A stretch of DNA of 64,000 nucleotides, from assembly GCF_009192765.1 (NCBI RefSeq), contig NZ_VOHQ01000008.1:62001-126000 (forward strand), written 5' to 3'. Both the position numbers and the translations under genes were made by a program. This document shows, in pieces, positions 27,695 through 54,110 of this stretch. This DNA comes from Agriterribacter humi (lineage in GTDB: Bacteria > Bacteroidota > Bacteroidia > Chitinophagales > Chitinophagaceae). Numbering within the stretch: the stretch's first letter is position 1; each line of letters opens with the position of its first letter. The notes below the pieces were generated by a model, which searched no databases, was not told the DNA's origin, and saw nothing but the letters and a program-made list of their open reading frames with translations.

Positions 27695-30340
27695 ATGAAC
27701 TTAAATAATTTCACCATTAAAGCACAGGAGGCGATGGCTAAATCGCAGCAGATTGCTTTCAATAACAATAACGCGAATATTGAAACTGAGCATTTTCTCA
27801 AGGCCTTGCTCAGTGATGATGATTCGCCTATTGAATTTTTGCTGAAGAAGAATAATGTGAATGTAAATTTTGTTGAAAGCAAATTAGACGAGAGCATTAA
27901 TAAATTGCCGAAAGTACAGGGCGGAGAGCCGGCCCAGGTTATTAGCCGCGATGCCAATAATGTAGTGCTGCGTACCGGTGCCTTGCTCAAAACCTTTAGC
28001 GATGAGTTTGTAAGTGTGGAACATATCCTGCTTGCTATTTTGCAGGGAACCGATAATAGCGCAAAGCTGCTTAAAGATGCGGGCCTAACAGAAAAGGGCT
28101 TAATTGCCGCTATTAAGGATTTGCGAAAAGGGTCTACCATTTCTTCGCAAACACAGGAAACCCAGTTTAATGTACTGAATAAGTATGCAAGGAATTTAAA
28201 TGAATTGGCCCGGCAGGGGAAATTAGATCCGGTAATAGGCAGAGATGAAGAAATAAGAAGAACATTACATATTCTTTCGCGGCGGAATAAAAACAACCCG
28301 ATGCTTGTGGGCGAGCCCGGCGTTGGTAAAACAGCCATAGCAGAGGGGTTGGCCATGCGTATTGTAAATGGCGACGTACCGGAAAATCTGAAAAGTAGAA
28401 TTATTTATGGTTTGGATATGGGGCAATTGATTGCCGGTGCAAAATATAAGGGGGAGTTTGAAGAAAGACTGAAAGGTGTGATCAATGAAGTTACAAAAAG
28501 CGATGGGCAGATCATTCTTTTTATTGATGAAATACATACGCTTATTGGTGCAGGGGGCGGTGAGGGCGCGATGGATGCGGCCAATATTTTAAAACCCGCA
28601 TTGGCAAGGGGCGAATTGAGAGCCATAGGCGCCACAACTTTAAATGAGTACCAGAAATACTTCGAAAAGGATAAAGCTTTAGAAAGAAGATTTCAAAAAG
28701 TGTTGATTGATGAGCCCGGTGTGGAAGATGCAGTTTCTATTTTACGGGGTATTAAAGACCGTTATGAAACCCATCATCATGTGCGCATTAAGGACCAGGC
28801 CATTATTGCTGCGGTTGAGCTTTCGCACCGTTATATCTCCGACAGGTTTTTGCCTGATAAGGCCATTGACCTGATTGATGAGAGCGCTGCAAAGCTGCGT
28901 CTCGAAATGAATTCCATGCCGGAAGAGCTGGATCAGTTGGAAAGACAGATTCGCCAGCTTGAAATTGAAAGGGAAGCCATTAAGCGGGAAAATGATGAAG
29001 AGAAACTGAAAGCGCTTGCAAAAGAGATTTCGCTGCATAGTGTGGAAAGGGATACGCTGAAAGCCAAGTGGCAGGAGGAGAAAGAGCTTGTTGAAAAAAT
29101 TCAGGCCGGCAAAGCGGGCATTGAAGCATTAAAAACAGAGGCTGAAAAAGCAGAACGCAATGGCGATTACGGAAGGGTAGCCGAGATCCGGTATGGAAAA
29201 ATTCAGGAAGAAGAGAAAAAGATAGAGCAGTTTACCGGAGAGTTGAATGAATTGGCTCCTGAAAAAAGATTATTAAAGGAAGAGGTAGATGCGGAAGATA
29301 TTGCCGAAGCGGTAGCTAAAGCCACAGGTATACCTGTGAGTAAGATGCTGCAGACTGAAAGAGAAAAACTGCTGAATCTGGAAGATGAATTGCACAAGCG
29401 GGTAATAGGGCAGGAGGAAGCGATAACCGCCGTTGCAGATGCCATCCGCCGCAGCCGTGCAGGATTGCATGATCCCAAAAAACCAATAGGTTCGTTTATA
29501 TTTCTGGGCACCACAGGAGTGGGAAAAACTGAACTGGCAAAGGCATTGGCAGAATACCTGTTTGATGATGACAATATGATGACGCGGATTGATATGAGCG
29601 AATACCAGGAAAAGCACACCGTTAGCCGTTTGGTGGGCGCTCCTCCGGGGTATGTGGGCTACGATGAAGGCGGCCAGTTAACCGAAGCCGTCAGGCGCAA
29701 ACCCTACAGCGTGGTATTATTAGATGAGATAGAAAAAGCGCATCCCGATGTGTTTAATGTGTTGCTGCAGGTATTGGATGATGGCCGCTTAACAGATAAT
29801 AAAGGCCGCGTGGTGAATTTTAAAAACACCATTATCATCATGACCAGCAATATGGGCAGCCAGGTAATACAGGATAATTTTGAAAACGTAACCGAAAGCA
29901 ATAAGGAAGAAGTAGTTGAGAATACCAAACGTGAAGTGTTGAATATACTGCGGCAAACCATTCGCCCGGAGTTTTTAAACCGGATTGACGATATCATTAT
30001 GTTTCAGCCGCTGATGAAGAGCGAAATACGTGGCATTATCAATATACAGCTCAACCATTTAAAAAACCTGGTGTCGCTGAACGGCATTACACTAGAATTC
30101 ACCGATTATGCGGTCGACTTTCTTGCCGAAAACGGTTATGATCCGCAATTTGGCGCCAGGCCATTGAAGCGGCTGATACAGAAAGAAATTGTGAACCAGT
30201 TAAGTAAAAGAATACTGGCAGGTGATATTGATAAAACAAACCCTGTTTTAGTAGATGTGTTTGATAATACCGTGGCGTTCAGGAATGAGAGTTCCGGTCC
30301 AACGTCTTCCGGTGAGAAGAGAAAGACTGCCGTTTCTTAA
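27695..30340 (+). CDS. clpB: ClpB disaggregase (Hsp100)
   Basis: 881 residues, full length. Clp_N repeats at ~1-145; first AAA+ domain with Walker A '[15 protein letters not shown]' (~206) and '[16 protein letters not shown]'; the M-domain coiled coil (~400-530, rich in E/K/L heptads '[19 protein letters not shown]'); second AAA+ domain with '[15 protein letters not shown]' (~604) and '[20 protein letters not shown]'; and the C-terminal D2-small domain. It threads aggregated proteins with DnaK. Monocistronic, with its own terminator. No CIRCE or sigma-32 box is obvious upstream. Confidence 0.96.
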
Positions 30341-30362
30341 TGCAGTGTCATTTTAATAGCAT

Positions 30363-30393
30363 AGCGTTATCCTTTTGGGTAGCGCTTTTTTTG
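30363..30393 (+). terminator. Intrinsic terminator of clpB
   Basis: AGCGTTATCC, loop TTTT, GGGTAGCGCT (two G-T wobbles), then TTTTTTTG. It lies 23 bases after the clpB stop and just before repeat copy 1. Confidence 0.85.
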
Positions 30394-30399
30394 TTTATT

Positions 30400-30515
30400 A
30401 AGTCGCGCTGCGGTCTTCATGAAAAGCCATTGCGGGTAGCAGACCCTGGAACTGAAGGATTCGCCTGGGGGCACTCTTCTCACAATTGCCTTGCTGTGGA
30501 GACCCGTTGGGACCC
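30400..30515. repeat. Family-I structured repeat, copy 1 (full length)
   Basis: Begins AAGTCGCGCTGCGGTC, then CTTCATGAAAAGCCATT, AGACCC, GGATTCGCC, CACTCTTCTCACAATTGCC and ends GGAGACCCGTTGGGAC. GGTCT...AGACC forms an outer stem; TTCATGAA is a palindrome. Same order of words as copies 2-5 (32145, 35231, 36797, 38242), all on the plus strand. It separates clpB from the S41 gene. Confidence 0.85.
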
Positions 30516-30633
30516 AAAACATTGGTGTTTGAAAAAGATAAATTCTCCTATCAAAAATTCATTTCCGATTTGATTGGAATTGATACGAAAGCTCATACAG
30601 ACAACTCCTCTTTTTGGCTCCATATTGAGATCC

Positions 30634-32079
30634 TTACTCTTTTTCTAAGTCAGCTTTTATATATTCTATCCACTGATGATGCGGTAAATGAGATAGATCA
30701 CTCTCAGGTATAAAGCCGGTTTTGTTTGTCGGCGCGGCATCTGTCCAGGGAGACTTCCTGTCGGGGATTAAAAGATAGTAATCATCAAAAGGCAATTTTG
30801 TTTGTTGGGATATTCCCATATAGTCCATCATACCTAAAGTATGCTCGCCATATCTTACTATTTTGCTACTCTGCTTTGAAATATAAAAGAAAAACTCTGT
30901 TGAACTTCCACCAAGATCATCAAAGATTAAGGCAATTTTTTGAGGTGTTTTTAATATCGAATCTGCATATAATGTCATAGTTGGCAGGGTGTAAAATGTA
31001 TTTTTCGAATGGGGGATTTCTTCATAGGCTTTTTTGTAAGCTGCAAGATATTCTGGAGTGTAAGACTTTTTCCATGCAGGATCTGTTGAGGGGTTTTCCG
31101 CCATCCATTTAATGCCGGGAAGATTAGCCTGGATATTCTCCGGAGATAATCTCAAATAGGTATGCCCCTGCTGTATAGGTTGGGTATAAAAATAAGGTAG
31201 GAGATACACCCAACCGGTATTGCCGCCGCCGTTTCCCCTTAAATCCACAATAAGGTTTTTTGTGCTCCTTATCAGGGAGTCATTTTTCTGAATGATCTCT
31301 TTTACCTTATCGTCATGATTAAACGACCCAATGGTTAGCAGCACATTATTATCATCAAGCTTTTTACAATTGAGCCCAAAATTGTAATGGCGCCAGGTAA
31401 GCAATTCGGATCTTTCGTCAGAAGTCATTGCATCGGGGTATACTTTGCCCCATATCTCAAAGTTCCAGATGTGTAACAGTCCGCCATGTTGCCTAACCGG
31501 AAAATCGGGTGTTAACCAATCGTACCTGTTAAACGTATACCCATCCTTATCTTTTGTAAGGGTGTAATACACGAGTCCGGTCCGGAGTTTGTTATCACTA
31601 CTCTGCACAATAACCGCCTTATAGGTTGTCGCATCCACCTTGTACACAGCCATCTTCACAGATGAATCAGGACTGATCCATAGTCCTTCTATAGCCTCTC
31701 TTTTTTTATTGGCGAAAGTTTTTACAAAACCAGACTCTGTGAGGCTGCTGTATTCAAATGCGGCGGTATCGGTTACGCTATATTCAAGATCGAAATGTTT
31801 GTCGTAAAAAAAGCCAACATATTCTTTCAGTATGGAAAAACATTTTTGCGGATCGGATCGTTTTATGGCATTTGCTCTTAGCTTTTTAATCAACTGTTTG
31901 TATTGCGATTGTGACTTTTTTGTAACCTTGTCAGGATAACCAACATAATTCAGTTCTGTTTTTTTAATGAGTGTATCCAAATTCTCAAGACAGTTGCAGG
32001 TTCGTTGGGCAATAATTTTTCCTGACAAAAATAAGAAGCTAAAGATCAAAAGAACTTTTGGTGTTGCTATATTTTTCAT
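30634..32079 (-). CDS. Exported S41-family (C-terminal processing/tail-specific-like) peptidase
   Basis: 481 residues from ATG at 32079 (MKNIATPKVLLIFSFLFLSG signal peptide, cleavage near IIAQ). The frame stays open upstream to an ATG at 32166, but that stretch is repeat-family sequence and is rejected as coding. The S41 domain shows 'NLIVDLRGNGGGNTGWVYLL' and the nucleophile region 'ALIFDDLGGSSTEFFFYISKQ', then 'VRYGEHTLGMMDYMGI'. The N-terminal ~150 residues resemble the non-PDZ leader seen in Bacteroidota S41 proteins. Flanked by family-I repeat copies 1 and 2. Confidence 0.85.
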   Translation of the reverse strand: MKNIATPKVLLIFSFLFLSGKIIAQRTCNCLENLDTLIKKTELNYVGYPDKVTKKSQSQYKQLIKKLRANAIKRSDPQKCFSILKEYVGFFYDKHFDLEYSVTDTAAFEYSSLTESGFVKTFANKKREAIEGLWISPDSSVKMAVYKVDATTYKAVIVQSSDNKLRTGLVYYTLTKDKDGYTFNRYDWLTPDFPVRQHGGLLHIWNFEIWGKVYPDAMTSDERSELLTWRHYNFGLNCKKLDDNNVLLTIGSFNHDDKVKEIIQKNDSLIRSTKNLIVDLRGNGGGNTGWVYLLPYFYTQPIQQGHTYLRLSPENIQANLPGIKWMAENPSTDPAWKKSYTPEYLAAYKKAYEEIPHSKNTFYTLPTMTLYADSILKTPQKIALIFDDLGGSSTEFFFYISKQSSKIVRYGEHTLGMMDYMGISQQTKLPFDDYYLLIPDRKSPWTDAAPTNKTGFIPESDLSHLPHHQWIEYIKADLEKE

Positions 32080-32144
32080 CCGGAATCTTTTTATTTGGTT
32101 ATTGGTGCAAATATAGCTGGAAAAGTTTTCGGTTTTAGCAGATT

Positions 32145-32221
32145 TAAGTCGCGCTGGGGTCTTCATGAATGGCCATTGTGGGCAGCTATGAGACCCTGGC
32201 GCTGAACAATATCGCCGTCAC
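32145..32221. repeat. Family-I structured repeat, copy 2 (short)
   Basis: Same opening AAGTCGCGCTGGGGTC and CTTCATGA; GCGCTGGGGTCT pairs with AGACCCTGGCGC over 12 positions (two wobbles). It ends after ATCGCCGTCAC and lacks the distal module. The stop codon of the 926-residue gene (TCA at 32218-32220) lies inside its last bases. Confidence 0.85.
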
Positions 32222-34998
32222 CTGATATTGCCAACACTATTTTTAGCGGTATCATGTTTTGTTTTGAGTGTATTGGAAATAGAACTGTATTGCTGGCCCA
32301 GGCTGCTGATTGAACCAAGCAAAACGGAAAAGCTGGTATCCACGGCAGCGATTGCTTTATCAACGTTGCTTTCGTTTTGAACAATTGTATTTCTAAGCTC
32401 ACGGCTGTTTTCTTTTGCCTTATGAATTGCATTTGCTGATGAAGTTTTATCGGCTGCCAACAACTGATCCAGTTCATCAAGCGTTACCAGGAAATCTTTG
32501 GTATTGCTTTTCGTAGTATTAACTATTGACTTCTCCTTAGTATCATCACCCGTGTTATGATCTACGATGCTGCTTGATTTATTGGAACGGGATGAATTAT
32601 GATCCTGGACACGGGGTTTAGTAGTAGTTCCATCTCCATCACAATCTTCATCTCTAATTGTTATCATTGTTTCGTCATCTAAATAATAATTTACTTCAGT
32701 AGCAATGCTGTAGTTTCCTTTTTCCATATTAGCAAATTCAAACGCTCCATGTTCATTTGTTTGTACAGCGCGCATTTGTCCTCCCGGGTTCTTGCCACCT
32801 TTTACTATGATGCCGCCAATAGGATTGCCAGGTCTGGCAAGCGCTGCTGAAGCAACAGCCCCCTCTGATGAAAATGCCTCACTATTGCCAATTAAAATTT
32901 CTGATATGCCATCGTCATCAATATCGCCAATAAGCACAGGGAAATTTTTTGTGTAAGATTGTGCGCAACCGCTATCTGCAATTACACCTGCGCCTGCCAT
33001 TCGCTCGTTTGTATTGTTTGATTGGGTCCTTTCTTTTTGAATAGTACTATTCCCTGTATTTAGTTCAATTGTCCAATGATCATCTGCTGTTTTTATTTCA
33101 CCAGCCATGTCTAAGTTTGCTTCGCTTTTAATTGTTACATCATAGTTTTTTGTTTTGCTAAAACCGCCGGTTACTTTTACCAGGTAGCTGGCTGCGGGTA
33201 CCCTGGCAAAAAAGAAATCGCCACAGGTTGTAGTTTTTGTAGTGGCTACTACCGCTCCGCTATTTATATCTATCAAAAAAACCGCTAACCCTTCAATACC
33301 ATCGCAATCATTATCTCCGCCCTTACTTAAGCTGCTCCTGCCTTCATACATTGGGTTTGTTCCCTGGTTTCCATTGTCACTATATAATGGATTTTTTATT
33401 CCCTGTGCTTGTTGTACGGTATGTGTCAATTCGTGCCCCAGCAACTTTACGGTAGCGGCACAGCCGTTACATTCGTTTATATCTCCTTCATTATATACAG
33501 GTGCATACTGTCTTTTGCCAGTGGCCATACCGCTGCCATGATCTCTTGCCGAACGTTTACCTGTTGCCATGCCACTACCGGCCTCTCTTGTATAGAAAGT
33601 AGCGGAAACACCTTGTGATGCTGTTGACGATGGCGCCATTCTTCCGGTTGCGGCATAAGAAGCTGCCGCCGCCCCACCACCAGCAAGATTACCAGCAGAA
33701 CCTACAGCATCCTGATTGGTTATAATACCAGATGAATTACCGCTACTCCAGCTTACAGTACCAGAGATAACAGCTCTTGAAGCTCCCTGCGACACTGCAC
33801 CGCCGGCGGCATGTAATCCCGCATTTACTTTTTCGCCAAATGTAGCTCCCTGTGTTTGTTTGGGTACGGTTACATTCATGCTAATGCGTTCATTATATGC
33901 TGCTGCATCGGCAGGACAGGCAAAAGTTTTTTCTTCTGTCGTTCCATCGGGGTTTGTTATTTTTTGTGTAACCGGACCGCAACTTTCATTGTTCATCATT
34001 CGGTTACCACCAGTTCCTGTTGTATTGATGGCATGATTTTGTGCAGACGGGATTACTCTTCCATTAGTTGCCCCTGTTCCCTTTGTATTGATGGCGTGTC
34101 TTTTTCCTGTTGCCATTCCGCCTGCAGCGTCTCTTTTTGACCCAAATGATTTTGTAATGCCCACGCCAACTGTAAACAATTTTACAACACGATCCTGTTC
34201 TATAGCCATATCCATACCCCGTTGGGGATCGTATAAGTTAATGGATGATTTTGTTTGCAGGTAACCTGTATTTAAAATAAACCGGGTGGAATTATTGATG
34301 GGATATGCCAAACCGATACTTCCGGAAAAACCGGGGAACAAGTTTTTTCCAGCTCCTTCAAAACGGTATAAGGAGCGAACAGCACCCGGCTGGCTAATAG
34401 TAATACTGCCCGGGTTGTTAATGAACATCCCGCCTTGCAATTCAGCGTTTACAATTACCCGCTCGCCAAATTTAAAAGAGGGACCAAACAAAAAATAGCT
34501 ATTGAAAGGATTAGATTTTGATATTTGGCCCTGTTGCCATTTTCGTTCTGTCAAAAACTTGTTGAGTACCGCGTTGTTGATAGCGCCGGCAACAATGCCG
34601 CTTGAAACGCCGATCCCTATATTTCCAAAATAGTATCGGCCAAACATTTGTGTGGCCATACCATTACCTCTAAACAGGCTGTTTTCATTACTTTTTCCTG
34701 CAAAAGAAACGCCACTGTTAATACCAAAAGTCCAGCCAGATGGTAAATAGCTTCGTTCCCCATTGCTCCCCTTTGTATTCCAGCCGCCATCATCTGATTG
34801 CGCCTGCATTCGCAACTTATTACTCCCTGATGAGTTCCAGTCGCTGCCATCCGGCGATATACTTGCAGTTTTATTGCTTCGCGATGAATTATGATCCTGG
34901 GCCCGGTTTGAATCGTGATTCGTAGTTCTTTGCTGTTGCGCATAGCCATTATAAACTACGCATAGCAAAACAAACAGAAACAATTGCTGTCTCATCAA
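32218..34998 (-). CDS. Large exported protein: N-terminal barrel, DUF4157-like HELTH motif, CNA-B-like domains
   Basis: 926 residues with a signal peptide (MMRQQLFLFVLLCVVYNGYAQQQ). Residues ~75-290 look like an outer-membrane barrel (GWTFGINSGVSFAGK ... LFTVGVGITKSFG). A low-complexity Ser/Gly/Thr region follows with repeated M-A-T-G-K-R (three copies) and HAINTKGTGA/HAINTTGTGG. Near residue 519 stands 'KLLGHELTHTVQQAQG', the zinc-site helix of DUF4157 (eCIS-associated metallopeptidase-like). Two Ig-like carboxypeptidase-regulatory/CNA-B segments follow (GIEGLAVFLIDINSG...; GAFEFANMEKGNYSIATEV), then an acidic 'GDIDDDGISEILIG'. QDHNSSRSNK occurs near both ends. Flanked by repeat copies 2 and 3. 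Confidence 0.72.
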   Translation of the reverse strand: MMRQQLFLFVLLCVVYNGYAQQQRTTNHDSNRAQDHNSSRSNKTASISPDGSDWNSSGSNKLRMQAQSDDGGWNTKGSNGERSYLPSGWTFGINSGVSFAGKSNENSLFRGNGMATQMFGRYYFGNIGIGVSSGIVAGAINNAVLNKFLTERKWQQGQISKSNPFNSYFLFGPSFKFGERVIVNAELQGGMFINNPGSITISQPGAVRSLYRFEGAGKNLFPGFSGSIGLAYPINNSTRFILNTGYLQTKSSINLYDPQRGMDMAIEQDRVVKLFTVGVGITKSFGSKRDAAGGMATGKRHAINTKGTGATNGRVIPSAQNHAINTTGTGGNRMMNNESCGPVTQKITNPDGTTEEKTFACPADAAAYNERISMNVTVPKQTQGATFGEKVNAGLHAAGGAVSQGASRAVISGTVSWSSGNSSGIITNQDAVGSAGNLAGGGAAAASYAATGRMAPSSTASQGVSATFYTREAGSGMATGKRSARDHGSGMATGKRQYAPVYNEGDINECNGCAATVKLLGHELTHTVQQAQGIKNPLYSDNGNQGTNPMYEGRSSLSKGGDNDCDGIEGLAVFLIDINSGAVVATTKTTTCGDFFFARVPAASYLVKVTGGFSKTKNYDVTIKSEANLDMAGEIKTADDHWTIELNTGNSTIQKERTQSNNTNERMAGAGVIADSGCAQSYTKNFPVLIGDIDDDGISEILIGNSEAFSSEGAVASAALARPGNPIGGIIVKGGKNPGGQMRAVQTNEHGAFEFANMEKGNYSIATEVNYYLDDETMITIRDEDCDGDGTTTKPRVQDHNSSRSNKSSSIVDHNTGDDTKEKSIVNTTKSNTKDFLVTLDELDQLLAADKTSSANAIHKAKENSRELRNTIVQNESNVDKAIAAVDTSFSVLLGSISSLGQQYSSISNTLKTKHDTAKNSVGNIR

Positions 34999-35230
34999 AA
35001 AAAGGTTTATATAGTTAATGATTGCATTAGGGCAGCTAAATCAGGTACGGAGTAATACCAAACAATGCAACAGGTCTCTAAAACGCAAAAAATTGTAAGT
35101 TGGTATTTTGATGGGTTACCGTTTATAAATTAATATTGGTCAATATTTTTTGAAGGGTGCTCGAAGAGTGAACCGCCCGTTGCATACTGATCATTTATCC
35201 TCCATCGGTGTCAATAAAGGCATCATTTCT

Positions 35231-35327
35231 AAGTCACGCTGGCTTTTTCATGAAAAGCCATTGCGGGTAGCAGACCCCGACACTGAACGATTCGATGGGT
35301 CACTTTTATCACAGTTGCCCTGTTGTA
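35231..35327. repeat. Family-I structured repeat, copy 3
   Basis: AAGTCACGCTGGC, TTCATGAAAAGCCATTGCGG, AGACCCCGACACTGAACGATTCG, GGGTCACTTTTATCACAGTTGCCCTGTTGT. The proximal module is most like copy 1 and the distal module is only partly kept. Lies between the 926-residue gene (-) and the LVIVD gene (+), in what would be the shared upstream region. Confidence 0.8.
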
Positions 35328-35430
35328 AATAAGAAAGCACCCGGATAGTTGTATTATACGATTAGAAAAGAATTGAACCCAAGTGCAACGCTTTCCTTTC
35401 CAACATTGTCAGTCGTTGAAAACGATTGCT

Positions 35431-36693
35431 ATGACAAAAAGAATCCCATCCTTGTTGCCGGCACTATTGGCAACAGGTTATATGCTTGTCTTTCTCTCCG
35501 GTTGCATAAAGGATAAAATAACTGCTACGCATACCTATACCTATACGATAATGACGCCTGTTTTGAAATCAAAAGCAGATGTTCTGGCGGCTATAAACGG
35601 AAACCCTGCCGAAACTGTTCAAAAAGCGGGAAAAATCTACATAAAGGATAAATTTATTTACCTGAATGAGGTAGATAAGGGAATTCATATTATTGACAAC
35701 AGCGATCCATCCCAACCTTCGCAGGTCGCTTTCCTGAACATTCCCGGTAACCGGGATATAGCTGTAAAAGGTAATACCCTGTATGCCGATATGTATAACG
35801 ATTTACTTGCAATAGACATCAGTAACCCGAAGCATGTTAATATCAGCAACCGGATTGCTAATTTTTTTATGGGCCGGATGTATGGTTATGGTTTAAATAT
35901 TGATGATAAATACATAGCTGTAGACTGGATTAAAAAAGATACCGTTGTAGCATTTACAGATAGAGTTTATCTGGGGGGCGATATATTCGCGTTAAATAAC
36001 GCCGCCAGTTCCGGAGGGGCAAAATCTAATGGTAACGGCACTGCCGGCTCAATGGCAAGCATGGTATTAATGAATGATTACCTGTATGCCATAAGAGAAC
36101 CGCACAGTGTAGGAATTGTGGATATTACCACTGCCGCCACTCCGCGGTTGGATACCACTTTCTATGCAGGTTTTGACCTGGAAACCATTTATCCTTTTGA
36201 AGACAAATTGTTTCTCGGTTCTTCTTCAGGTATGTTTATGTATGATCTTGCCAATCCCACATCTCCTGTGCAATTGGGTACATTTTCGCATGGCCGTGCC
36301 TGTGATCCTGTAGTAACTGATGGTGAGTATGCGTATGTTACGCTGCGCGGCGGCACTTCCTGTGGTGGAAATGACAATGAGCTGAATATTGTAGATGTAA
36401 AAGATCTTATGAACCCTGTATTGGTAAAAACCTATCCGCTTACCGGGCCAACCGGTCTCACTAAAGACGGCAACCTGCTTTTTGTATGTGATGGTACAAG
36501 CGGTGTAAGATTATACGATGCATCAAACCCCGGGGCAATAAAACAGCTAACACAAATAGACAGTGATGAACCATATGATGTAATTGCAGCCAATAAAAAA
36601 GCGATGATTGTTGGCAAAAATGGTTTGTATCAGTACGATTACAGTGACCTGAATAATATCCGCTTACTGAGTTTTTATTCATTGAAACAATAA
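35431..36693 (+). CDS. LVIVD-repeat outer-membrane-type lipoprotein
   Basis: 420 residues from ATG at 35431; an upstream ATG at 35383 is disfavoured because MTKRIPSLLPALLATGYMLV already starts a lipoprotein signal ending in the lipobox F-L-S-G-C. The mature part is a beta-propeller of LVIVD-type units: 'NEVDKGIHIIDNSDPSQPSQV', 'YNDLLAIDISNPKHV', 'HSVGIVDITTAATPRL', 'GMFMYDLANPTSPVQ', 'NELNIVDVKDLMNPVLV', 'SGVRLYDASNPGAI'. Each has a hydrophobic strand followed by D-x-S/N-x-P. Probably surface-bound, role unknown. Bounded by repeat copies 3 and 4. Confidence 0.82.
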   Translation: MTKRIPSLLPALLATGYMLVFLSGCIKDKITATHTYTYTIMTPVLKSKADVLAAINGNPAETVQKAGKIYIKDKFIYLNEVDKGIHIIDNSDPSQPSQVAFLNIPGNRDIAVKGNTLYADMYNDLLAIDISNPKHVNISNRIANFFMGRMYGYGLNIDDKYIAVDWIKKDTVVAFTDRVYLGGDIFALNNAASSGGAKSNGNGTAGSMASMVLMNDYLYAIREPHSVGIVDITTAATPRLDTTFYAGFDLETIYPFEDKLFLGSSSGMFMYDLANPTSPVQLGTFSHGRACDPVVTDGEYAYVTLRGGTSCGGNDNELNIVDVKDLMNPVLVKTYPLTGPTGLTKDGNLLFVCDGTSGVRLYDASNPGAIKQLTQIDSDEPYDVIAANKKAMIVGKNGLYQYDYSDLNNIRLLSFYSLKQ

Positions 36694-36695
36694 GA

Positions 36696-36796
36696 TATTT
36701 CAGATGCGGTCGGCACCCGATGTAAGGAGGGGCAGACGGCATCTTTGATTTCTGATTTCTGATTTTTGATTTTGAGATTTATGATTTGAGATTTAC
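36696..36796. repeat. Repeat unit F, copy 1
   Basis: TTTCAGATGCGGTCGGCACCCGA, then a GGAGGGGCAGACGGCATC stretch, then TTTGATTTCTGATTTCTG words. It parallels 38365-38460 word for word. Here it sits before family-I copy 4; at the other locus it sits after copy 5. Confidence 0.75.
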
Positions 36797-36862
36797 AAGT
36801 CGCGCCAAGGTCTTCATGAAAAGTCCATTGTGGGCAGCTATGACACCCTGGCGCTGAACAAA
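36797..36862. repeat. Family-I structured repeat, copy 4 (short)
   Basis: AAGTCGCGCCAAGGTC, CTTCATGAAAAGTCCATTGTG, ACACCCTGGCGCTGAAC. GCGCCA pairs with TGGCGC. The change GCGCT/GGCGC to GCGCC/GGCGC relative to copy 2 keeps the stem. The distal module is missing. Confidence 0.85.
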
Positions 36863-36986
36863 GCAACAATAGGGCGCTTGTTTTTCCGGGCAGCTTTATT
36901 TGTCCTTTGAAAGCTGGTGCCAGAGAGGGGTAATTATTATTAACAGGATAGTCTCCTGTAAGAAAATCAGCGGGTTGCTAACGGTA

Positions 36987-38090
36987 TCATGCAACAGCAC
37001 TGATAAATTTTTTCATTTCCTTCATTGTACCTACAGTAATTCGTGTCCATTTTCCCTGCTCCTCGTATATTCTTGTACCGATGATATTATTTTGCTTTAG
37101 TAAGGCGAAGTAATCCTTTTTATAATTATCAAGCGAAAAATATACAAAATTGGTATTGGAGGGAATACAGGTAAGACGCAGGCGTTCTAATTGTTCAATA
37201 GTATATTTACGTGTTAGCTGATTTAAGTTATAGTTTTCTTTTACAAATTTTTCATCACCCAGGGATGCTATAGCTGCTGCAGCAGATACTACACTAAGGC
37301 TGCCGGCAGGCCAGGATACCATCAGCGCGAGTTGCTCAATGGTGTCTTTATGCGCAATGGCATACCCTGTTCTTGCACCAGCAAGCCCATATATCTTAGA
37401 AAATGTTTTCGCTATTACAAGGTTTTTATTATACGGCACAAGATCGCACAGCGATTGCTGTTCTGTAAAGTCAATGTAGGCTTCATCTACAAGCACGATT
37501 GCTTTTTTTGTGGCTTCTTTTACAAAAGTCACCAATATATCTCTGTCACAAACAGTGCCAGTAGGGTTATTGGGATTGCATAGATAAATAAGATTTGTAT
37601 CGGGTTGCACGGCACAAAGCATTGCCTGGAGATCGTTTTTTTTATCTGCGGCCAGCGGTACGCCTATTTTCCTGAAACCAGATTTCTCTACAACATAAGT
37701 CCAGTAATCATATGTAGGCTGGGCGATAACAAAACTTCCTTTTTTTGAAGCGGAAAATCTTGCTGTAATATCCAGGATTTCGGTAGATCCTGCTCCCACC
37801 AGGATATTACCGGCAGTAACCTCGTGTTTCTTTGCAAGTGCTGCCACCAACACGCCGGTAAGTTCACCATTATACCTGTTACTGATACTTATGTGGTCGG
37901 CCATAGCTTTTCTTGCCAGGGGGGAGGGGCCATAGGGATTTTCATTTGCCACTAGTCTGACAGGTTTATCATCAATGGTATTATCCCAAAAAGGATTGCC
38001 GGGAGCAGCAATAGTTTCAAGACTCGAGGCGCCTATTCCTGCTGTTGCCAGGCCAACTTGTTTTAACCAGGTCCTTCTGCTTGTATACAT
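36987..38090 (-). CDS. Tat-exported PLP-dependent aminotransferase (HisC-like fold type I)
   Basis: 367 residues. The N-terminus MYTSRRTWLKQVGLATAGIG is a twin-arginine signal. The rest is a histidinol-phosphate aminotransferase-like enzyme: 'ANENPYGPSPLARKAMADH', 'LVGAGSTEILDITARF' (PLP phosphate loop), 'YLCNPNNPTGTVC' (Asn), 'VLVDEAYIDF' (Asp-Tyr), 'VIAKTFSKIYGLAGARTGYAI' (Schiff-base Lys) and 'WTRITVGTM' (C-terminal Arg). All PLP residues seem present. A Tat-targeted HisC-like enzyme would act in the periplasm. Its role cannot be histidine synthesis in the cytoplasm unless the signal is not used. Bounded by repeat copies 4 and 5. Confidence 0.85.
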   Translation of the reverse strand: MYTSRRTWLKQVGLATAGIGASSLETIAAPGNPFWDNTIDDKPVRLVANENPYGPSPLARKAMADHISISNRYNGELTGVLVAALAKKHEVTAGNILVGAGSTEILDITARFSASKKGSFVIAQPTYDYWTYVVEKSGFRKIGVPLAADKKNDLQAMLCAVQPDTNLIYLCNPNNPTGTVCDRDILVTFVKEATKKAIVLVDEAYIDFTEQQSLCDLVPYNKNLVIAKTFSKIYGLAGARTGYAIAHKDTIEQLALMVSWPAGSLSVVSAAAAIASLGDEKFVKENYNLNQLTRKYTIEQLERLRLTCIPSNTNFVYFSLDNYKKDYFALLKQNNIIGTRIYEEQGKWTRITVGTMKEMKKFISAVA

Positions 38091-38241
38091 ATTTTTATAT
38101 TTAGAATTTATGAGCGTTTAAACTACCTGTCGCTTATTTTTTGAAATGGTTACAATTTACAGCAAGTAAATCTTTTATGCCGTACAAACCCGAACGGCTT
38201 AATAAAACCGTGTTGTACAAAATGCGCCAGTCATCCTTTTT

Positions 38242-38360
38242 AAGTCGCGCCGGGGGGCTTCATGAAAAGTCCATTGTGAGCAGATATTAGACCCTGGCGC
38301 TAACGATTCGCCGGGGTCACTCTTCTCACAGTTGCCCTGTTGTGGAGACCCGTTGCGACA
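38242..38360. repeat. Family-I structured repeat, copy 5 (full length)
   Basis: AAGTCGCGCCGGGGGG, CTTCATGAAAAGTCCATTGTG, AGACCCTGGCGCTAACG, GATTCGCCGGGGTCACTC, TTCTCACAGTTGCCCTG, GTGGAGACCCGTTGCGAC. A first hairpin pairs GCGCC with GGCGC. A second pairs CGGGGTCAC with GTGGAGACCCG. With copy 1 it is the longest copy and marks the right end of the block, before accA. Confidence 0.85.
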
Positions 38361-38364
38361 AAAA

Positions 38365-38520
38365 GTACTTCAGATGAGGTCGGCGCCCGAGGCGAGGAGG
38401 GTCAAGCCGTATCTTTGATTTCTGATTTCTGATTTGAGATTTCTGATTTGAGATTGCTCCCGCAACAACCTGCAACATGTCCCTGTCCTTGTAACCTGCA
38501 ACCTGAACTTCACACCTCAT
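38365..38520. repeat. Repeat unit F, copy 2, plus simple-word block
   Basis: ACTTCAGATGAGGTCGGCGC, GAGGAGGGTCAAGCCGTATC, then TTTGATTTCTGATTTCTG words, then ACCTGCAACATG/GTAACCTGCAACCTG words. The first ~95 bases match 36696-36796. Noncoding. Confidence 0.7.
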
Positions 38521-38565
38521 TTTTCGCAGCACATATAATTCTGCCGGGGTTTCCTTTATAAATAT

Positions 38566-38573
38566 TATTTTTG
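38566..38573 (+). promoter_or_regulatory. Candidate -7 box for accA
   Basis: TATTTTTG matches TAnnTTTG and lies 22 bases before the accA ATG. The -33 TTG is not clear. Confidence 0.45.
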
Positions 38574-38595
38574 CCGTCTGCATATTTAACAGCTT

Positions 38596-39576
38596 ATGCC
38601 CCAATTTAAACAAAGACAGTTCCTGGAGTTTGAAAAACCGGTTAAAGAATTATTTGACCAGGTAGTGCAGTTGAAACAAATGGCCGAGAAAAATCCAAAG
38701 ATGGATTATACGGATACCATGCAACAACTCGAGCAATCCATTGTTGAAAAACGAAGGGAAATCACGCAGCATCTTACGCCCTGGCAACAGGTGCAGTTGA
38801 GCCGCCATCCGGATAGGCCGTATACCCATGCCTATATAAAAAGGATGTGCACCAACTATGTGGAATTGTATGGCGACAGGAATGTGAGGGACGACAAGGC
38901 AATAGTGGGAGGATTTGGGCAGTTAGATGGTCAAACGGTAATGATCATTGGTCACCAGAAAGGCATCAACACCAAAATGCGGCAATTGCGGAATTTTGGT
39001 ATGGCTAACCCCGAAGGCTACCGTAAAGCATTACGATTGATGAAACTGGCTGAAAAATTTAATAAACCTGTTGTTACACTCATTGATACACCGGGCGCAT
39101 TTCCCGGGGCGGAAGCAGAAGAACGCGGACAGGGAGAGGCCATTGCCCGTAATATTTATGAAATGATGCGTTTAAAAGTACCGGTTATTTGTGTGATTAT
39201 TGGTGAAGGCGCCAGTGGTGGAGCGCTTGGTATAGGAGTAGGCGACAGGGTGCTGATGCTGCAAAATACATGGTATACTGTTATATCACCCGAAAACTGC
39301 AGTTCCATTTTATGGCGTAGTTGGGAAAAGAAGGAGGTTGCTGCGGAGCAGTTAAAACTAACTTCCACCGATATGAAAGGGTTTGGGCTGGTTGACGATG
39401 TAGTGCCTGAGCCATGTGGGGGAGCGCACTGGAATTATGAAGAAACCTCGCAAACACTAAAATCATACCTAATCCCGCTTATTAAAGAATTGCAATCCAT
39501 TGACCCTGCGGTACGCGTGCAGCAACGCATTGAAAAGTACAGCAAAATGGGTTTCTGGGAAGAATTACCTCAATAA
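38596..39576 (+). CDS. accA: Acetyl-CoA carboxylase, carboxyltransferase subunit alpha
   Basis: 326 residues, standard length. Landmarks: the N-terminal coiled region, '[21 protein letters not shown]', '[20 protein letters not shown]', '[22 protein letters not shown]', '[22 protein letters not shown]' and '[21 protein letters not shown]' (crotonase-type oxyanion loop). With AccD it transfers CO2 from biotin to acetyl-CoA for fatty-acid synthesis. It marks the return to core genome after the repeat-delimited block; dapA follows 101 bases later. Confidence 0.96.
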
Positions 39577-43602: not shown

Positions 43603-43781
43603 TATCATAATATTCCTATGGATTCACAGATTTCTCGTACCCCAGAATACCAGGTAGAGAAACCCAGGTGAATTGCATTACTAATGTTGAACATAGCACC
43701 GCTGCTTGTCATGCCGACCAAAGGAGGCATCTGCTCAAACACTTCTCTGCTACTAAAAACGCTGATGGAAGTATTTCACGA

Positions 43782-43845
43782 TGACGAAGTCTCCAATTTC
43801 GTACACAGTATGTTCTTCCTGGACGCTGTCCCGTAAAATGATAAC
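43782..43845. repeat. Family-II repeat copy
   Basis: GACGAAGTCTCCAATTTCGTAC, CAGTATGTTCTTCCTGGAC, CTGTCCCGTAAAATGATAAC. The centre GGAC-GCT-GTCC is a short hairpin. It closes the interval that contains the toxin-antitoxin pair. Confidence 0.65.
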
Positions 43846-44679: not shown

Positions 44680-44742
44680 TCTTTATAATTATGAATGGCA
44701 ATTTAAATGATTTATTGTAATACCCGCTGCGTTAGCGCGAAA

Positions 44743-44893
44743 GTTTTGAACCACGGAGACCGAGAGGCACGGAGTTGCATGGATGGTTTTTTGAGCAATT
44801 AACTTGTTCCTTCTTTGCGCCCCTGCTCCATTGCGTTCTCCGCCTGCCCGAATGACGCGGTCGGGCGGGCGTGAAATATTGAATCATCTTTTG
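44743..44893. repeat. Family-III repeat, copy 2 with inserted REP-like hairpin
   Basis: Same ordered words as 42404-42528 (GAACCACGGAGACC, GTTGCATGGA, CTTCTTTGCG, TTGCGTTCTC, GTGAAATATTGAATC). Between TTCTCCGC and CGTGAAATATTGAATC it carries an extra ~27-base hairpin: CTGCCCGA, loop, TCGGGCGGG. The hairpin is absent from copy 1. Confidence 0.7.
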
Positions 44894-45055
44894 CGTCCCA
44901 CCCGCTATCCCGCAAATGATCCTGCCGTTTAAACCCGGCGTATAATTGTTTGAGCGTAGTATTATTGAAGCAGGATGAAATATATTTCACGATTTGCATT
45001 ATATTTAGTTACAGGTTTCCACAGCTTGCCGCGCTAACGTTGCATCACAACCACC

Positions 45056-46906
45056 ATGAATATTCATAAGGCCACCGCTCTTATTACGCTGTTATTTATT
45101 GCAGTTGTATCATCTTTTGCCCAGGAGCCATCTTTTTTTTCTGATAGCTTTTACTCTTTTTCTTCCCATATACCTCCGGGTGCCATTCATATAAATCCCT
45201 CAGATATTCATTATTCCAGTTATGATGGGCAAAAAATTGATTTTGGAATAGTAACGTACAATAAGTGGTGCTATATTGTAATAAAGGCCGGATCATCCTC
45301 CGGTCATGAAAGATATGTTTTGTCTGTTGATAATACCAGTCTCGACACTGTTTTGCTGTTCGGCCTAACAAGTGATGGCACAAAACAAATAGCATATAGC
45401 GGGGGAAACCTGGTGCCATACGATCGCAACAGGAAATATGTATGGCATACCATGTTACTTAGCCTGGATAAAGAGGACACATACTATCTTGCCGCATTTC
45501 AGGATCAGGGTAAAAATGTGAATGTGGGTTATAAAATAATGACCGCTGATAACCTGGATAAGTTATACGTAGGGTTTGACCGGCTTATCTGGTTCTACCT
45601 CGGCACAGTTTTTCTCATCATCATTGCAGTGTTATCTGGCTGGATTATTTTCAAAAATATCGCATTGGGTTATTATGCGCTGTATATCGTTAGCGTCACT
45701 TCATGGATACTCGCTCATTATGGCTATTTGTACCCCATGCTCTTTCCGGGGTTCCCTGTGCTTAATGGCATTATAAAGCCCTTATCCATTGTATGCGGAC
45801 TGCTGTCATTTTGCAGGCTTTTAGATTCACTGTTTAAGCGCATCCTGGATAATGATAAAATCAGTCAAACCATACTCAGGTGTATTACCTGGTCTGCTGT
45901 GGTTATGCCGGTCACATTGACCATCTATTATTTTTTACCTGGAATGACACTGCTGCCCGCGCTGTTCAATGTAGGATGGCATACTTATTTTGTTTTATCG
46001 TTTGCATGCATTTTACTGGTGCTAATACGATTGTTTGAAAAGAGCATCACTGTCCGGCTGTTTGCATTAGCTATGGGGGTTATGGTGATCATGGCGATAC
46101 AGCAGGTGTTGTCAAACGCAGGTTTTTTTTATGTTGCTCTTTTGAATGATCACGGCATGCTGCTCACGAGCATAGCAGAAATGCTGGTGCTTACCTGTGC
46201 CACTTTTTTGAATATATGGGAAGATAAAAAGCACGTAGCGGTGCATGTTGTACAATTGGAAGAAGCGCATTCCCGCACATTGGAACAATTGGTAACGGTG
46301 CAGGATAGTGAACGTAAAAGGATTGCCGGCGAACTGCACGACAGCATTGGCCCCATGCTGGCGGCTATAAAAATAAATTTTTTAAGGGTAGCCAAAGCAA
46401 GGCTCCGGAATGACGCCTCAGATTTGCTTGTAGCAAAAACGGAAGAGATAATTGATGGTTCTATGATGGAAATAAGGGACATGTCGCACCAGCTTATGCC
46501 CAAAGGACTTTCTTCGGAAGGGCTGGTAGTTTCTTTGTCTAAGTACTTCGAAAATCTTCAGGAGGCGTATAATATACCAGTTCAGTTTAAGCATGATATT
46601 ACTACATCGTTGCATACAGATGTTCAGTTGAACGTATACAGGATCATGTGCGAGCTGGTTTTAAATGCAGTAAAACACAGCGATGCCTCTCAAATTTCCG
46701 TGTCTATAGAAACCCCTGATGGTGCTATCGTTTCTATGGTAGAGGACAACGGTCGCGGATTTGATCCTTTGCAAATAAGCGATTCATCATTAGGATTGAA
46801 AAGCATTCGAAGCAGGGTGGATTACCTGAAGGGAGCAATGCAGATCGAATCTGCGGCCGGCAAGGGCGCTATTATTAAAATAATGATACCTGAAAAGAAT
46901 GATTAA
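45056..46906 (+). CDS. 7TMR-DISM sensor histidine kinase (NarL-type partner)
   Basis: 616 residues. Signal peptide, an extracellular beta-sandwich-like 7TMR-DISM domain (~25-170), seven membrane helices (~175-395), a short coiled coil (KKHVAVHVVQLEEAHSRTL), then HisKA_3 with 'RKRIAGELHDSIGPMLAAIK' (His428) and an HATPase_c with 'LNAVKHSDAS' (N box), 'EDNGRGFDPL' (G1) and 'GLKSIRSRVDYL' (G2). It should phosphorylate a LuxR-type regulator such as the convergent gene. Divergent from the TonB-domain gene; the stop shares bases with the response regulator's stop. Confidence 0.93.
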   Translation: MNIHKATALITLLFIAVVSSFAQEPSFFSDSFYSFSSHIPPGAIHINPSDIHYSSYDGQKIDFGIVTYNKWCYIVIKAGSSSGHERYVLSVDNTSLDTVLLFGLTSDGTKQIAYSGGNLVPYDRNRKYVWHTMLLSLDKEDTYYLAAFQDQGKNVNVGYKIMTADNLDKLYVGFDRLIWFYLGTVFLIIIAVLSGWIIFKNIALGYYALYIVSVTSWILAHYGYLYPMLFPGFPVLNGIIKPLSIVCGLLSFCRLLDSLFKRILDNDKISQTILRCITWSAVVMPVTLTIYYFLPGMTLLPALFNVGWHTYFVLSFACILLVLIRLFEKSITVRLFALAMGVMVIMAIQQVLSNAGFFYVALLNDHGMLLTSIAEMLVLTCATFLNIWEDKKHVAVHVVQLEEAHSRTLEQLVTVQDSERKRIAGELHDSIGPMLAAIKINFLRVAKARLRNDASDLLVAKTEEIIDGSMMEIRDMSHQLMPKGLSSEGLVVSLSKYFENLQEAYNIPVQFKHDITTSLHTDVQLNVYRIMCELVLNAVKHSDASQISVSIETPDGAIVSMVEDNGRGFDPLQISDSSLGLKSIRSRVDYLKGAMQIESAAGKGAIIKIMIPEKND

Positions 46907-47541
46907 AGCCTGATCAATCCCATATTGTTGGCTTTGAGTACTAAGCCGATACGGTTTTTGACATTAAATTTTTCAAAGAGCCTGCCACGGTAAGTATCTA
47001 CTGTGGATTCACTTAAAAACATTTTTTCAGCGATTGCTGTATAGCTTAGGTCAGTGCACATATATTGAAGTAATTCCTTCTCGCGGTCTTTCAGTTCCGG
47101 AATAGTGCTGGTATTTTTTTTTGATACCTGCTGGCTGATCTGTTTGGTGATGAGGGGTGTATAATAAAAGCCGTATTTTACCACCGCCTGCAATGCGTTC
47201 AATAACTCTTCGGCGCTCACACTCTTCAGCAGGTATCCCTTAACACCGTATTGAAGCATTTTAATAATGCTGTTATCATCATTCTCCATCGTAAGAGCAA
47301 GCACATTTGCTGGCATATTGTTTTGAAACAGCCATTCGGCTACTTCAATACCATTTTTGCCGGGCATATTGATATCAAGCAGTAAAATTTGCGGTTGATT
47401 ATCTTTTTGCTTAAGTATCTCAATGGCTTTGTCTCCATCCTGGGCAGTCCAGGTAACGCTGAACCCTTCAAAGTCGTTAATGAGCGCTTCCAGGGAGTCA
47501 CAGAATATTTTATGGTCGTCTGCAATAGCTACGGTAGTCAT
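46903..47541 (-). CDS. NarL/FixJ-type response regulator
   Basis: 212 residues from ATG at 47541 (MTTVAIADDHKIFCDSLEALI). The frame is open upstream to 47730 but those residues do not belong to a receiver domain. Receiver: 'VAIADDHK', phosphoacceptor Asp in 'ILLLDINMPGKNGIEVAE', and 'YLLKSVSAEELLNALQ'. C-terminal LuxR HTH: 'LKDREKELLQYMCTDLSYTAIAEKMFLSESTVDTYRGRLFEKFNVKNRIGLV'-like segment, beginning 'PELKDREKEL' and ending 'LVLKANNMGLIRL'. It regulates transcription after phosphorylation, most likely by the kinase at 45056-46906. The two genes converge. Confidence 0.93.
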   Translation of the reverse strand: MTTVAIADDHKIFCDSLEALINDFEGFSVTWTAQDGDKAIEILKQKDNQPQILLLDINMPGKNGIEVAEWLFQNNMPANVLALTMENDDNSIIKMLQYGVKGYLLKSVSAEELLNALQAVVKYGFYYTPLITKQISQQVSKKNTSTIPELKDREKELLQYMCTDLSYTAIAEKMFLSESTVDTYRGRLFEKFNVKNRIGLVLKANNMGLIRL

Positions 47542-47699
47542 TTGTATAGCAATAGGTATTAAAGATAAAGAAGATTGTAAAAGGGAAAGCCTGAAAGATA
47601 TCATGGTTTTTCCTGATGGAATTTGGAGGTTATTCATGAAGAAAGCGTTTAAATGGGGGAGTAGCTTTGGTAAGACAAAAGCGCTCTCCCTGAAATAGC

Positions 47700-48181
47700 A
47701 ATTGATAAAGAGCTTTCCTTCAAAAGACAATATCCTCTACAATTCCTGCCGTACCCCCCAATGCCCGTTTAAAAACGGTAAATATCCCGTAGCCACACTT
47801 AATAGTCATTTTATTTTTACTTTGTCAGATAAGAAAGAAACACAGCATGGGACGTTTACGCCCCTTGGGTTTTCTTCCTGGGTTTCTTACGCCCAGTTAA
47901 CTTATGGATTACATTATAACGGGTATGAATGTTATGCAGATGAAGGAAATAACCAAAGCAATCTCTTTAGGCTTGATAGTGGCAGATGCTTTGATAACTA
48001 AGGTATACGAACAAGTATTGGTACTACGAAATGGTATGGCTTTTTCGGCTTTTCGGTTGATTGATTAAACGCTAAAATTCCCACGGCTTATTACCTGCAG
48101 CAAAACGGGCAACCTGAAATTACAGGAACAGAGAAGCTGCCGTATAAGAATTTTCAGGTTAAGATAAATTTTGCGCTGTAG
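47700..48181 (+). pseudogene. Degraded 3' part of an outer-membrane-barrel gene
   Basis: Noncoding spacer of 810 bases lies between the response regulator and the membrane protein. Near its end, 48088-48181 reads on the plus strand 'AYYLQQNGQPEITGTEKL' then 'YKNFQVKINFAL' and a stop, the look of a last barrel strand with a hydrophobic end. Earlier segments read 'FTPLGFSSWVSYAQLTYG' in another frame. Several stops and frame changes are needed to link them, so this is a relic, not an active gene. Confidence 0.35.
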
Positions 48182-48351
48182 GGTATAGGTAAGTAAAAGT
48201 AAGGCACGTGTCTGACTATGCACAAACCAAACGCGGCCAAACCTGTGCCAGCGAGGGGTTCCTTGAAGCTCGAGAAAATTATTTTTGAATTAGTTGAAAC
48301 GTCCTTATCCTTTCAATTGCCTCAGTTGTTGTAATCTCAAAACTTTCTACT

Positions 48352-49863: not shown

Positions 49864-49866
49864 ATT

Positions 49867-50766
49867 ATGGCACAACTGAAAGTTATAGTAAATAAACTCA
49901 ACAGAAGGAGAACGCCAATAGTTGATTTTGGTGAAAAAGCAAACATTAGTGGTACCGTATCCAAAGGTTATTTATTTGTGAGTGTACAGGAGATAACAAA
50001 CGACCTGGGCAAATGGTATATGGATAGAGATGGCTATTATTATTGGGGCGGCGGCGTTACGATCATCAGCCTTAATGACCCTGTAGTTCCCCAGGATAAT
50101 TCTGCAAACAGGGTAGCGGGGAAAGCAGTAATTCCTCTGCCTCATACTACCCCTCAGGAACTTCCTTTGAGTCGCAATAAATGTTTACTAACAGCCGAAT
50201 GGCTGCAACAACATTATGGTGATAAATGCCAGGCCGTTACCGAGGAGACGCCATTTACCAAAGAACTTTTATACGCCATTGCCTGCCAGGAAACCGCCAT
50301 TTATTTTTATGACTGGACCAAAGACCATACCCCTGACGAAGTGTTGGGTAGGTGCGTATTTGATGCATCAGGAGATGTCAATGGAACCCGGCGGGCTTTT
50401 CCTAAAAACACCCCGGAATTTATAGCACGCTATGGACAAGACACAGCCAACATGTTAATAGCAGAAGCCAATAAAACCCGTGCTATGCGGGGCTTTGGCC
50501 CCAAGCACTGGGTGTATGCCGGGTATGGTTTGTTTCAGTATGATTTGCAATATATCCAAACGGATGAAACTTTTTTTACGCAAAAGCAATGGTATCAAAT
50601 GGATCATTGCCTCGAAAAAGTAATAAAGGAATTAAAAAGTAAATGGGCTGCCCATCCCAACGACCTTTTTCAAACGGTGAAGGCCTACAATGGAAGTGGC
50701 CCAAGGGCAGAAAATTATGCCAACAATGTGTTGCAATTCCTTGCATGGATTAGGCAGAGAACATAA
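49867..50766 (+). CDS. SH3b-like domain plus lysozyme-superfamily (lytic transglycosylase-like) domain (gene B)
   Basis: 299 residues, no signal peptide. Residues 1-70 are SH3b-like ('LKVIVNKLNRRRTPIVDFG', 'NDLGKWYMDRDGYYYWG'). They are closely similar to the N-terminus of gene C. The C-terminal ~200 residues resemble a goose-lysozyme/SLT fold: 'KELLYAIACQETAIYFY' (catalytic-Glu position), 'VYAGYGLFQYDLQYIQTD' (equivalent of A-M-G-L-M-Q) and 'FQTVKAYNGSGPRAENYANNVLQFL' (A-Y-N-x-G segment). Likely a peptidoglycan hydrolase. The lack of export signal means it must leave by another route or act on incoming cells or phage. Confidence 0.68.
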   Translation: MAQLKVIVNKLNRRRTPIVDFGEKANISGTVSKGYLFVSVQEITNDLGKWYMDRDGYYYWGGGVTIISLNDPVVPQDNSANRVAGKAVIPLPHTTPQELPLSRNKCLLTAEWLQQHYGDKCQAVTEETPFTKELLYAIACQETAIYFYDWTKDHTPDEVLGRCVFDASGDVNGTRRAFPKNTPEFIARYGQDTANMLIAEANKTRAMRGFGPKHWVYAGYGLFQYDLQYIQTDETFFTQKQWYQMDHCLEKVIKELKSKWAAHPNDLFQTVKAYNGSGPRAENYANNVLQFLAWIRQRT

Positions 50767-50822
50767 GAGCAGATAAACTTTTTAATAACAAATTGTATGG
50801 ATCATTTTACACAAACTGTACC

Positions 50823-53812: not shown

Positions 53813-54110
53813 AATTGGATCAGGGGCTTACTTCAGTGTTTATCACCGACCAACATAAAGAACATGATTTCTAAAAATAGAAGGTTTCAAAGAAATCTTA
53901 GCCATACAGAAAAGTGAATTAGCTTTTTTGTGCCTGCAGAGAGAAATGAACTATGATAATAAAAAAGGTAAAAAGAAAAAAAGAAAGGGAACAAAAAAAT
54001 GAGTAGAAAAATGATTGAAAATATTTTGAACGTAATAAAGGGGAATAAAAGATGTTCCGTAATTATTTAAAGAACGCTGATTAAAATTGTAACATTCTAA
54101 AAATCGACTT
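53813..54110. other. AT-rich spacer without a gene
   Basis: Poly-A/purine-rich stretch (AAAAAGGTAAAAAGAAAAAA) and no convincing reading frame. It separates the A-D operon from the double-hydrolase gene, so a separate promoter for the latter is likely; I see no clear TAnnTTTG box. Confidence 0.5.

Follow-up and report, generated by a model that had tools for sequence, protein, structure and literature searches.

Why are four unrelated genes between clpB and accA of Agriterribacter humi separated from one another, and from their flanking genes, by five copies of a structured repeat that all point the same way? The block lies in a 64-kb stretch of contig NZ_VOHQ01000008.1 (the window, to whose numbering coordinates without a contig label refer), and an original prediction had read it as a series of single-gene modules inserted at, or together with, a repeat unlike any element it could name. 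Here we place the block in its own genome (G000, 5.69 Mb) and compare it with the draft genomes of 11 congeners (G001 to G011), of which G006 is the sister genome; contigs are labelled C and fetched stretches L. The repeats do have a counterpart among known elements: they are REP/REPIN-like (REP, repetitive extragenic palindrome; REPIN, REP doublet forming a hairpin) and flank a gene for a REP-associated tyrosine transposase (RAYT). The answer that we favor, with a probability of roughly one half (0.52), is that local and strand-biased spreading of REPs leaves the repeats as preferred junctions of gene turnover. The repeats then mark a place where genes are gained and lost, and carriage of genes by the repeats themselves stays putative.

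The five copies (R1 to R5, counted from clpB; Table 1) lie where they had been claimed to lie, all on the plus strand. A profile built from the five recovers exactly these copies in the 64-kb window, with E values from 3.8e-29 to 4.9e-20, and the same search finds no sixth copy there, its next match standing only at E 0.047. Pairwise BLAST links nine of the ten possible pairs at E 6e-8 or better, R3 and R4 being the pair without a match. Exactly one gene occupies each gap, and the predicted identities hold: an S41 peptidase (-), a HELTH protein with CarboxypepD_reg and SdrD_B domains (-), an LVIVD protein (+) and a class I/II aminotransferase (-). The description of the copies themselves needs amending. 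All six of the ordered words quoted as shared are found in R1 and R5, whereas R2 has three of them, R4 two and R3 none exactly; and the contrast of full outer with shortened inner copies is right for R1 and R5, which are doublets, but treats as alike three inner copies that are not, R2 and R4 being single arms of about 65 nt and R3 a degraded doublet of 99 nt. Two other identities were considered and rejected: terminators, given that the five gaps include convergent, tandem and divergent gene pairs, and a known RNA family, there being no Rfam match with an E value of 1 or less across window positions 30,000-39,000.

The unit of the family is a hairpin arm of 58 nt, which stands alone in R2 and R4 and is doubled in inverted order in R1 and R5; the two inverted arms of R5 fold along its entire length. 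In an alignment of 37 arms, chosen by hand from 70 elements plus the arms found in searches of G009 and G010, the 35 distinct arms have 91.1% of their pair cells paired, against 37-43% when the pairing is slid, and six double-changed cells, against 2.0 in shuffles, a value reached by 2 of 500 shuffles. Doublets are found elsewhere too, with several full copies matching the profile on both strands and plus-minus doublets present in G006 and G010. When R5 is compared by BLAST with G000, 21 matches are returned: five in the block, an 8-kb part of the window, 11 in C1:33.9-78.2 kb, all of them on the minus strand, and five elsewhere. The pattern is not one of random extragenic dispersal. These genome-wide numbers are BLAST counts and miss a diverged cluster at C8:0-20 kb that the arm profile detects. 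With that 58-nt profile we count 36 elements in the 0.54 Mb fetched of G000 and 32 in the 0.59 Mb fetched of G006, regions chosen for holding copies or for pairing with such regions, so that densities and turnover counts given here differ from genome averages. Beyond the genome of A. humi itself, the repeat is present in five of the 37 other genomes searched, and all five belong to the 11 congeners. No significant target duplication was found in 12 full elements with hand-set ends, which fits an enzyme of the HUH type but proves nothing.

The candidate for such an enzyme is encoded at C1:60,036-60,740. This open reading frame (ORF) of 234 aa matches NF047646, the NCBIfam model for RAYTs, with 84.6 bits against a cut-off of 80; its Y1_Tnp score of 22.1 bits falls just below Pfam's 23, its match to TnpA-REP (PDB 4er8) is weak (whole-sequence E 0.00095), and it contains the motifs NHMH and YIHYNP. 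It is flanked by repeat copies at C1:60,008-60,063, which overlaps the ORF start as listed, and at 60,756-60,813, and its 82% relative in G006 likewise sits among copies (contig C2). Judged by sequence and position, the C1 protein is likely the cognate transposase of the repeats. The pairing is likely rather than proven because, among the further and more distant RAYT-like ORFs of G000 (on C34, C31 and C23), the one on C34 is also near a copy, at about 1.2 kb. We regard the repeats as probable REPs and REPIN-like doublets of a Bacteroidota RAYT system, and cleavage of the cognate REP by the enzyme is predicted.

Three regularities characterize the arrangement of the copies: clustering, shared orientation and cluster-specific sequence. 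Co-orientation of neighboring elements within 20 kb is complete in G000 (27/27 cases) and has one exception in G006 (14/15), orientation being that of the stronger arm, and on C25 of G010 every arm is plus except the weaker second arms of two doublets. The leading strand deduced from GC skew at fourfold sites, a statement confined to regions with |z| above 2.5, matches the orientation of the elements on C33 (6/6, z 4.5) and C1 (15/15, z -4.3), the regions with the best sampling. Elements of one cluster resemble each other more than they resemble elements elsewhere, both in G000 (85.8 vs 78.5%, P 0.001; 20 of 36 elements) and in G006 (92.2 vs 84.3%, P 0.0005; 14 of 32 elements). The nearest relative of R2, R4 and R5 is the G006 copy at the place of R3 (91, 91 and 89%). 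Short-range copying of one strand explains these regularities jointly.

Genes that are mostly small also stand in arrays between REPs of one orientation in L025 1-18240 (C1:60,001-78,240), where repeated stretches are spaced near 2,042, 1,440 and 1,542 bp, and in L225 (C8:1-20,000). G010 is a third genome with an array, L240 (C25:89,990-96,885), in which five same-orientation arms stand within 7 kb with genes between them, one of them PIN-like by eye. Six of the fetched G006 contigs (C2, C5, C45, C76, C121 and C129) start or stop within about 300 bases of a copy, and draft assemblies of the genus may for that reason break at arrays.

The link to gene content emerges from the comparison with G006. 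Homology runs up to R1, skips the S41 gene together with R2 and restarts at 32209, the end of R2; the edge of the gap lies 3 bp from the R2 arm. Further along, the aminotransferase gene is missing from G006 with both R4 and R5, the block ending at R5, and a 77-bp repeat (X) with one copy in G006 has two in G000, one on either side of this block. These two single-gene units, S41 with R2 and R4-aminotransferase-R5, agree with the predicted insertion of single genes with a repeat. The idea that R1 and R2 recombined in G006 and so deleted the segment was rejected, since a short R2-like product should have been left and G006 has a full doublet. Elsewhere, a melibiase gene of G000 that is absent at this place from G006 ends 10 bp from a REP common to both genomes, and the C1 array holds a partial duplication of a cupin gene with its REPs as well as a duplicated 3' fragment of the RAYT gene that includes a REP. 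Counted over sites, a gene-scale indel occurs at 3 of 6 repeat sites as against 8 of 86 other sites (Fisher P 0.021), in a comparison limited to high-scoring segment pairs (HSPs) of at least 200 bp and 72% identity and to single-HSP blocks of at least 1.5 kb. Copies strewn at random and with no tie to genes, the outcome named in advance as fatal to the modular idea, are thus not what the genomes hold as regards placement, which is non-random; the tie to gene gain is only moderate.

The history of the interval in the genus points the same way. All congeners except G011 yielded accA, and the stretch around the gene was retrieved from each of these 10, the contig of G001 measuring only 3.5 kb. 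In G006, G010, G004 and G002, clpB is the near upstream neighbor of accA; it is on the opposite side in G007, and outside the fetched accA stretch in G009, G005, G003 and G008. In G002 and G004 the gap between the two genes is only about 190 and 450 bp and holds neither a gene nor a copy of the family, as expected if the interval filled stepwise. In G010 a 180-aa lipoprotein-like gene lies between two 148-bp direct repeats (95% identical and containing the REP) and is followed by LVIVD; G006 has the order REPIN, HELTH, REPIN, LVIVD; and G000 has, besides HELTH and LVIVD, the S41 gene (with R2) and the aminotransferase gene (with R4 and R5). The genes differ in their spread among the 12 genomes of the genus, S41 occurring in one, its own, HELTH in 3 (one of them weak) and the aminotransferase in 7, this last with no match at E 1e-30 in G006, G010, G009, G001 and G011 and present in none of the four genomes with the closest accA; the absences rest on draft genomes (G010 is 88% complete, G001 95%). 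The block grew one gene at a time, as had been proposed, and gains rather than losses are the simpler reading of these distributions, though no proof.

The mechanism that we favor would join these observations as follows. RAYTs are thought to spread their own hairpins; the experiments considered here are on Proteobacteria and include reported cleavage and strand-transfer assays for three TnpA-REP/REP pairs (PMC8266576). The A. humi RAYT, an HUH enzyme of the Y1 type, would nick and copy single-stranded REPs at replication forks, and the copying would go mostly to nearby sites and to one strand, giving arrays of a single orientation. The hairpins, or the nearby direct copies, would then serve as preferred junctions through slippage, template switching or recombination, and at such junctions single genes would be gained, duplicated or lost, often together with one repeat. 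The genes themselves would be the unrelated cargo of a turnover hotspot.

Several results weigh against this account. As to the family, for two of the five arm-hairpin measures 102 and 137 shuffles out of 500 do as well as the real arms, RNAalifold run alone on the arm alignment proposes no pair, R1 folds no better than shuffles (z 0.47), and the tetranucleotide GT[AG]G is absent from the hairpin foot, where arms start AGTCGCGCC or similar; because of this last absence we call the family REP/REPIN-like and not REP/REPIN. As to local copying, the clusters of the likeness test were defined by hand, the arm tree has low support over its 58 columns, and of the seven repeat-bearing regions with |z|>2.5 five agree fully with the leading strand, while C98 of G006 agrees in 2 of 3 elements and C103 of G006 in 0 of 2. 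As to turnover, the enrichment rests on only six repeat sites. Finally, the second G010 copy is flanked, by eye, by an exact 15-bp direct repeat.

Alternatively, the repeats would be bystanders, REPs and REPINs that insert singly in extragenic space with the fork setting their orientation, in an interval that is a hotspot for unrelated reasons; single genes would be delimited merely because repeats avoid coding sequence. We consider this explanation unlikely, though it is the strongest of the rivals. The agreement of orientation with the inferred leading strand on C33 and C1 suits it, as does the second G010 copy, which looks as if it had been inserted alone. Among 11 collinear gene-scale indels, moreover, just 3 have a family repeat within 150 bp of an edge, and the other 8 are free of it. 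A repeat-only insertion of 240 bp in G000 (C8:50,396-50,635), with no gene and with a clean empty site in G006, suits the bystander reading too, and likewise R3 is conserved relative to G006 without any gene change. At C23/C38 the same two genes are separated by the REP family in G006 and by another repeat family in G000, and in G009 LVIVD adjoins clpB with no copy found there. Gene and repeat are therefore not obligate partners in either direction, contrary to what the modular idea had assumed: LVIVD in G009 and the 8 repeat-free indels are genes without the repeat, the C8 insertion a repeat without a gene. Against bystanders it speaks that cluster-mates are more alike than other copies, that at S41 and melibiase the gap edges come to within 3 to 12 bp of repeat arms, and that modules are duplicated along with their REPs.

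Closest to the original prediction would be true cassettes, in which single genes, each with one same-strand REP hairpin, would be moved by a domesticated single-strand transposase, and integron-like arrays would be built without an integrase. A gene with one REP, or between two REPs of the same orientation, would be mobilized by the RAYT in trans and added beside a resident REP, in the manner of an IS200/IS605-type element with same-strand hairpin ends; the arrays so covered would be the clpB-accA block, C1:60-78 kb, C8 and C25 of G010. The presence or absence of S41+R2 and of R4-aminotransferase-R5 as whole units speaks for such mobility, as does the different single gene that G010 carries between its 148-bp direct repeats. 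Two adjacent C1 modules share both ends (84 and 72%) around unrelated proteins (BLASTP E 0.23), and the gene at C1:51,102-51,794, beside a REP, has its 87% counterpart in G006 across the RAYT gene and again near REPs, on a draft contig of 11.9 kb. Against cassettes, a homologue at E 1e-15 exists somewhere in the fetched regions for 17 of the 55 G000 genes that lie no more than 400 bp from a REP, the close ones being positional counterparts or the RAYT fragment with the exception of this one rearranged gene. Repeat-only insertions and the apparently independent second copy of G010 also speak against them, and no report of a RAYT moving genes was found in searches of the literature on RAYTs, REPs or REPINs with cassettes, horizontal transfer, Chitinophaga or Bacteroidetes, or on Chitinophagaceae with integrons. 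We therefore hold cassettes to be improbable, a good deal more so than bystander repeats; if true, carriage of genes by a RAYT would be new.

Integron gene-cassette arrays also consist of single genes between same-orientation structured sites, but that the repeats here are attC-type sites of a tyrosine integrase is very improbable, as the A. humi genome has no TIGR02249 match over the cut-off (0/1; weak hits also occur in all 14 control genomes), the genes stand in both orientations and the family flanks a RAYT instead.

The features of the block and its fixed neighbors are collected in Table 1. For the S41 gene, whose ORF is listed to 32166, we prefer the second ATG, at 32079, because the longer ORF runs into R2.

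Table 1. Genes and repeats of the clpB-accA interval of A. humi (window coordinates).
Feature	Position	Strand	Evidence and remarks
clpB, left fixed neighbor	27695..30340	+	ORF 881 aa; syntenic in G006, G010
R1, doublet (REPIN-like)	30399..30516	+	positional counterpart G006 L135:10040-10161, 81%
S41-family peptidase gene	30634..32079	-	PF03572 E 1.3e-7; in 1/12 genomes of the genus (own)
R2, single hairpin arm	32145..32209	+	DNA fold z -4.57; absent with S41 gene from G006, homology resuming at 32209
HELTH-motif large protein gene	32218..34998	-	CarboxypepD_reg, SdrD_B domains; same place in G006
R3, degraded doublet, 99 nt, conserved position	35230..35328	+	inside G006-aligned sequence; DNA fold z -2.62
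LVIVD-repeat protein gene	35431..36693	+	PF08309 E 1e-13; ORF listed from 35383, ATG at 35431
X1, copy of second intergenic repeat	36696..36772	+	83% to X2; single copy at this place in G006
R4, single hairpin arm	36796..36860	+	five-copy profile match; DNA fold z -1.80
HisC-like aminotransferase gene	36987..38090	-	PF00155 E 1.4e-49; twin-arginine-like start (by eye)
R5, doublet (REPIN-like)	38242..38360	+	folds into one long hairpin, z -2.65
X2, second copy of X repeat	38366..38442	+	83% to X1
accA, right fixed neighbor	38596..39576	+	ORF 326 aa; anchor for locating the interval in relatives

Other repeats occur as well. A second same-orientation repeat, 81-85% identical among its copies and unrelated to the REP, lies at window positions 43777-43845, 57542-57607 and 58524-58577, close to the boundaries of two further blocks by which the window differs from G006, one of 13 kb (44717-57701) and one of 0.65 kb (57870-58523). 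Behind the smaller block, homology to G006 restarts exactly at 58524. The 13-kb block, absent at this place from G006, holds ORFs that by eye resemble a sensor histidine kinase, a LuxR-type regulator, a subtilisin-like protein and a hydrolase. At L025 13394-14002 a RibD-like ORF has an AGLPAGQAGL stretch that looks, again by eye, like another repeat read in frame.

Among described systems, the family is most like REPs and REPINs with their RAYTs, sharing with them short extragenic hairpins, inverted doublets, a flanked RAYT gene and a restriction to related genomes; it differs in its longer arms (58 nt), the lack of GT[AG]G, and the few copies found, which are clustered and of one orientation (PMC3116915, PMC2817692), whereas doublets and REPINs are described as randomly distributed over extragenic space (PMC3116915). 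Subclass 2.6 of the TnpA-Y1 proteins belongs to the same phylum and has atypical hairpins, copies of which surround the gene and occur at other genomic places too; its Bacteroidetes repeats likewise lack GT[AG]G; the motif tabulated for it is YIH[QN]NP, as compared with YIHYNP here, and the likeness is one of description, not of placement in a tree (PMC6006769). In the O157-antigen locus of Escherichia coli, REPs lie at the junctions of exchanged sequence, with several same-orientation REPs per gap, and these recombination points provide a precedent for gene gain at repeat junctions, although there a whole antigen cluster was exchanged while here single unrelated genes accumulate singly (PMC3158064). 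Local amplification and deletion of REPINs, such as the reduction of a six-copy tandem cluster by five, also has clusters changing size locally, but those REPINs are tandem within one gap and the copies here are spread over several genes (PMC8049555).

The clpB-accA block would thus represent a Bacteroidota version of the REP/RAYT system, in which the copies form arrays of one orientation and alternate with single genes where genes have been gained step by step. As such, it may be well suited to asking whether a domesticated single-strand transposase shapes the gene content of its host, and to the study of local, strand-biased REP copying.

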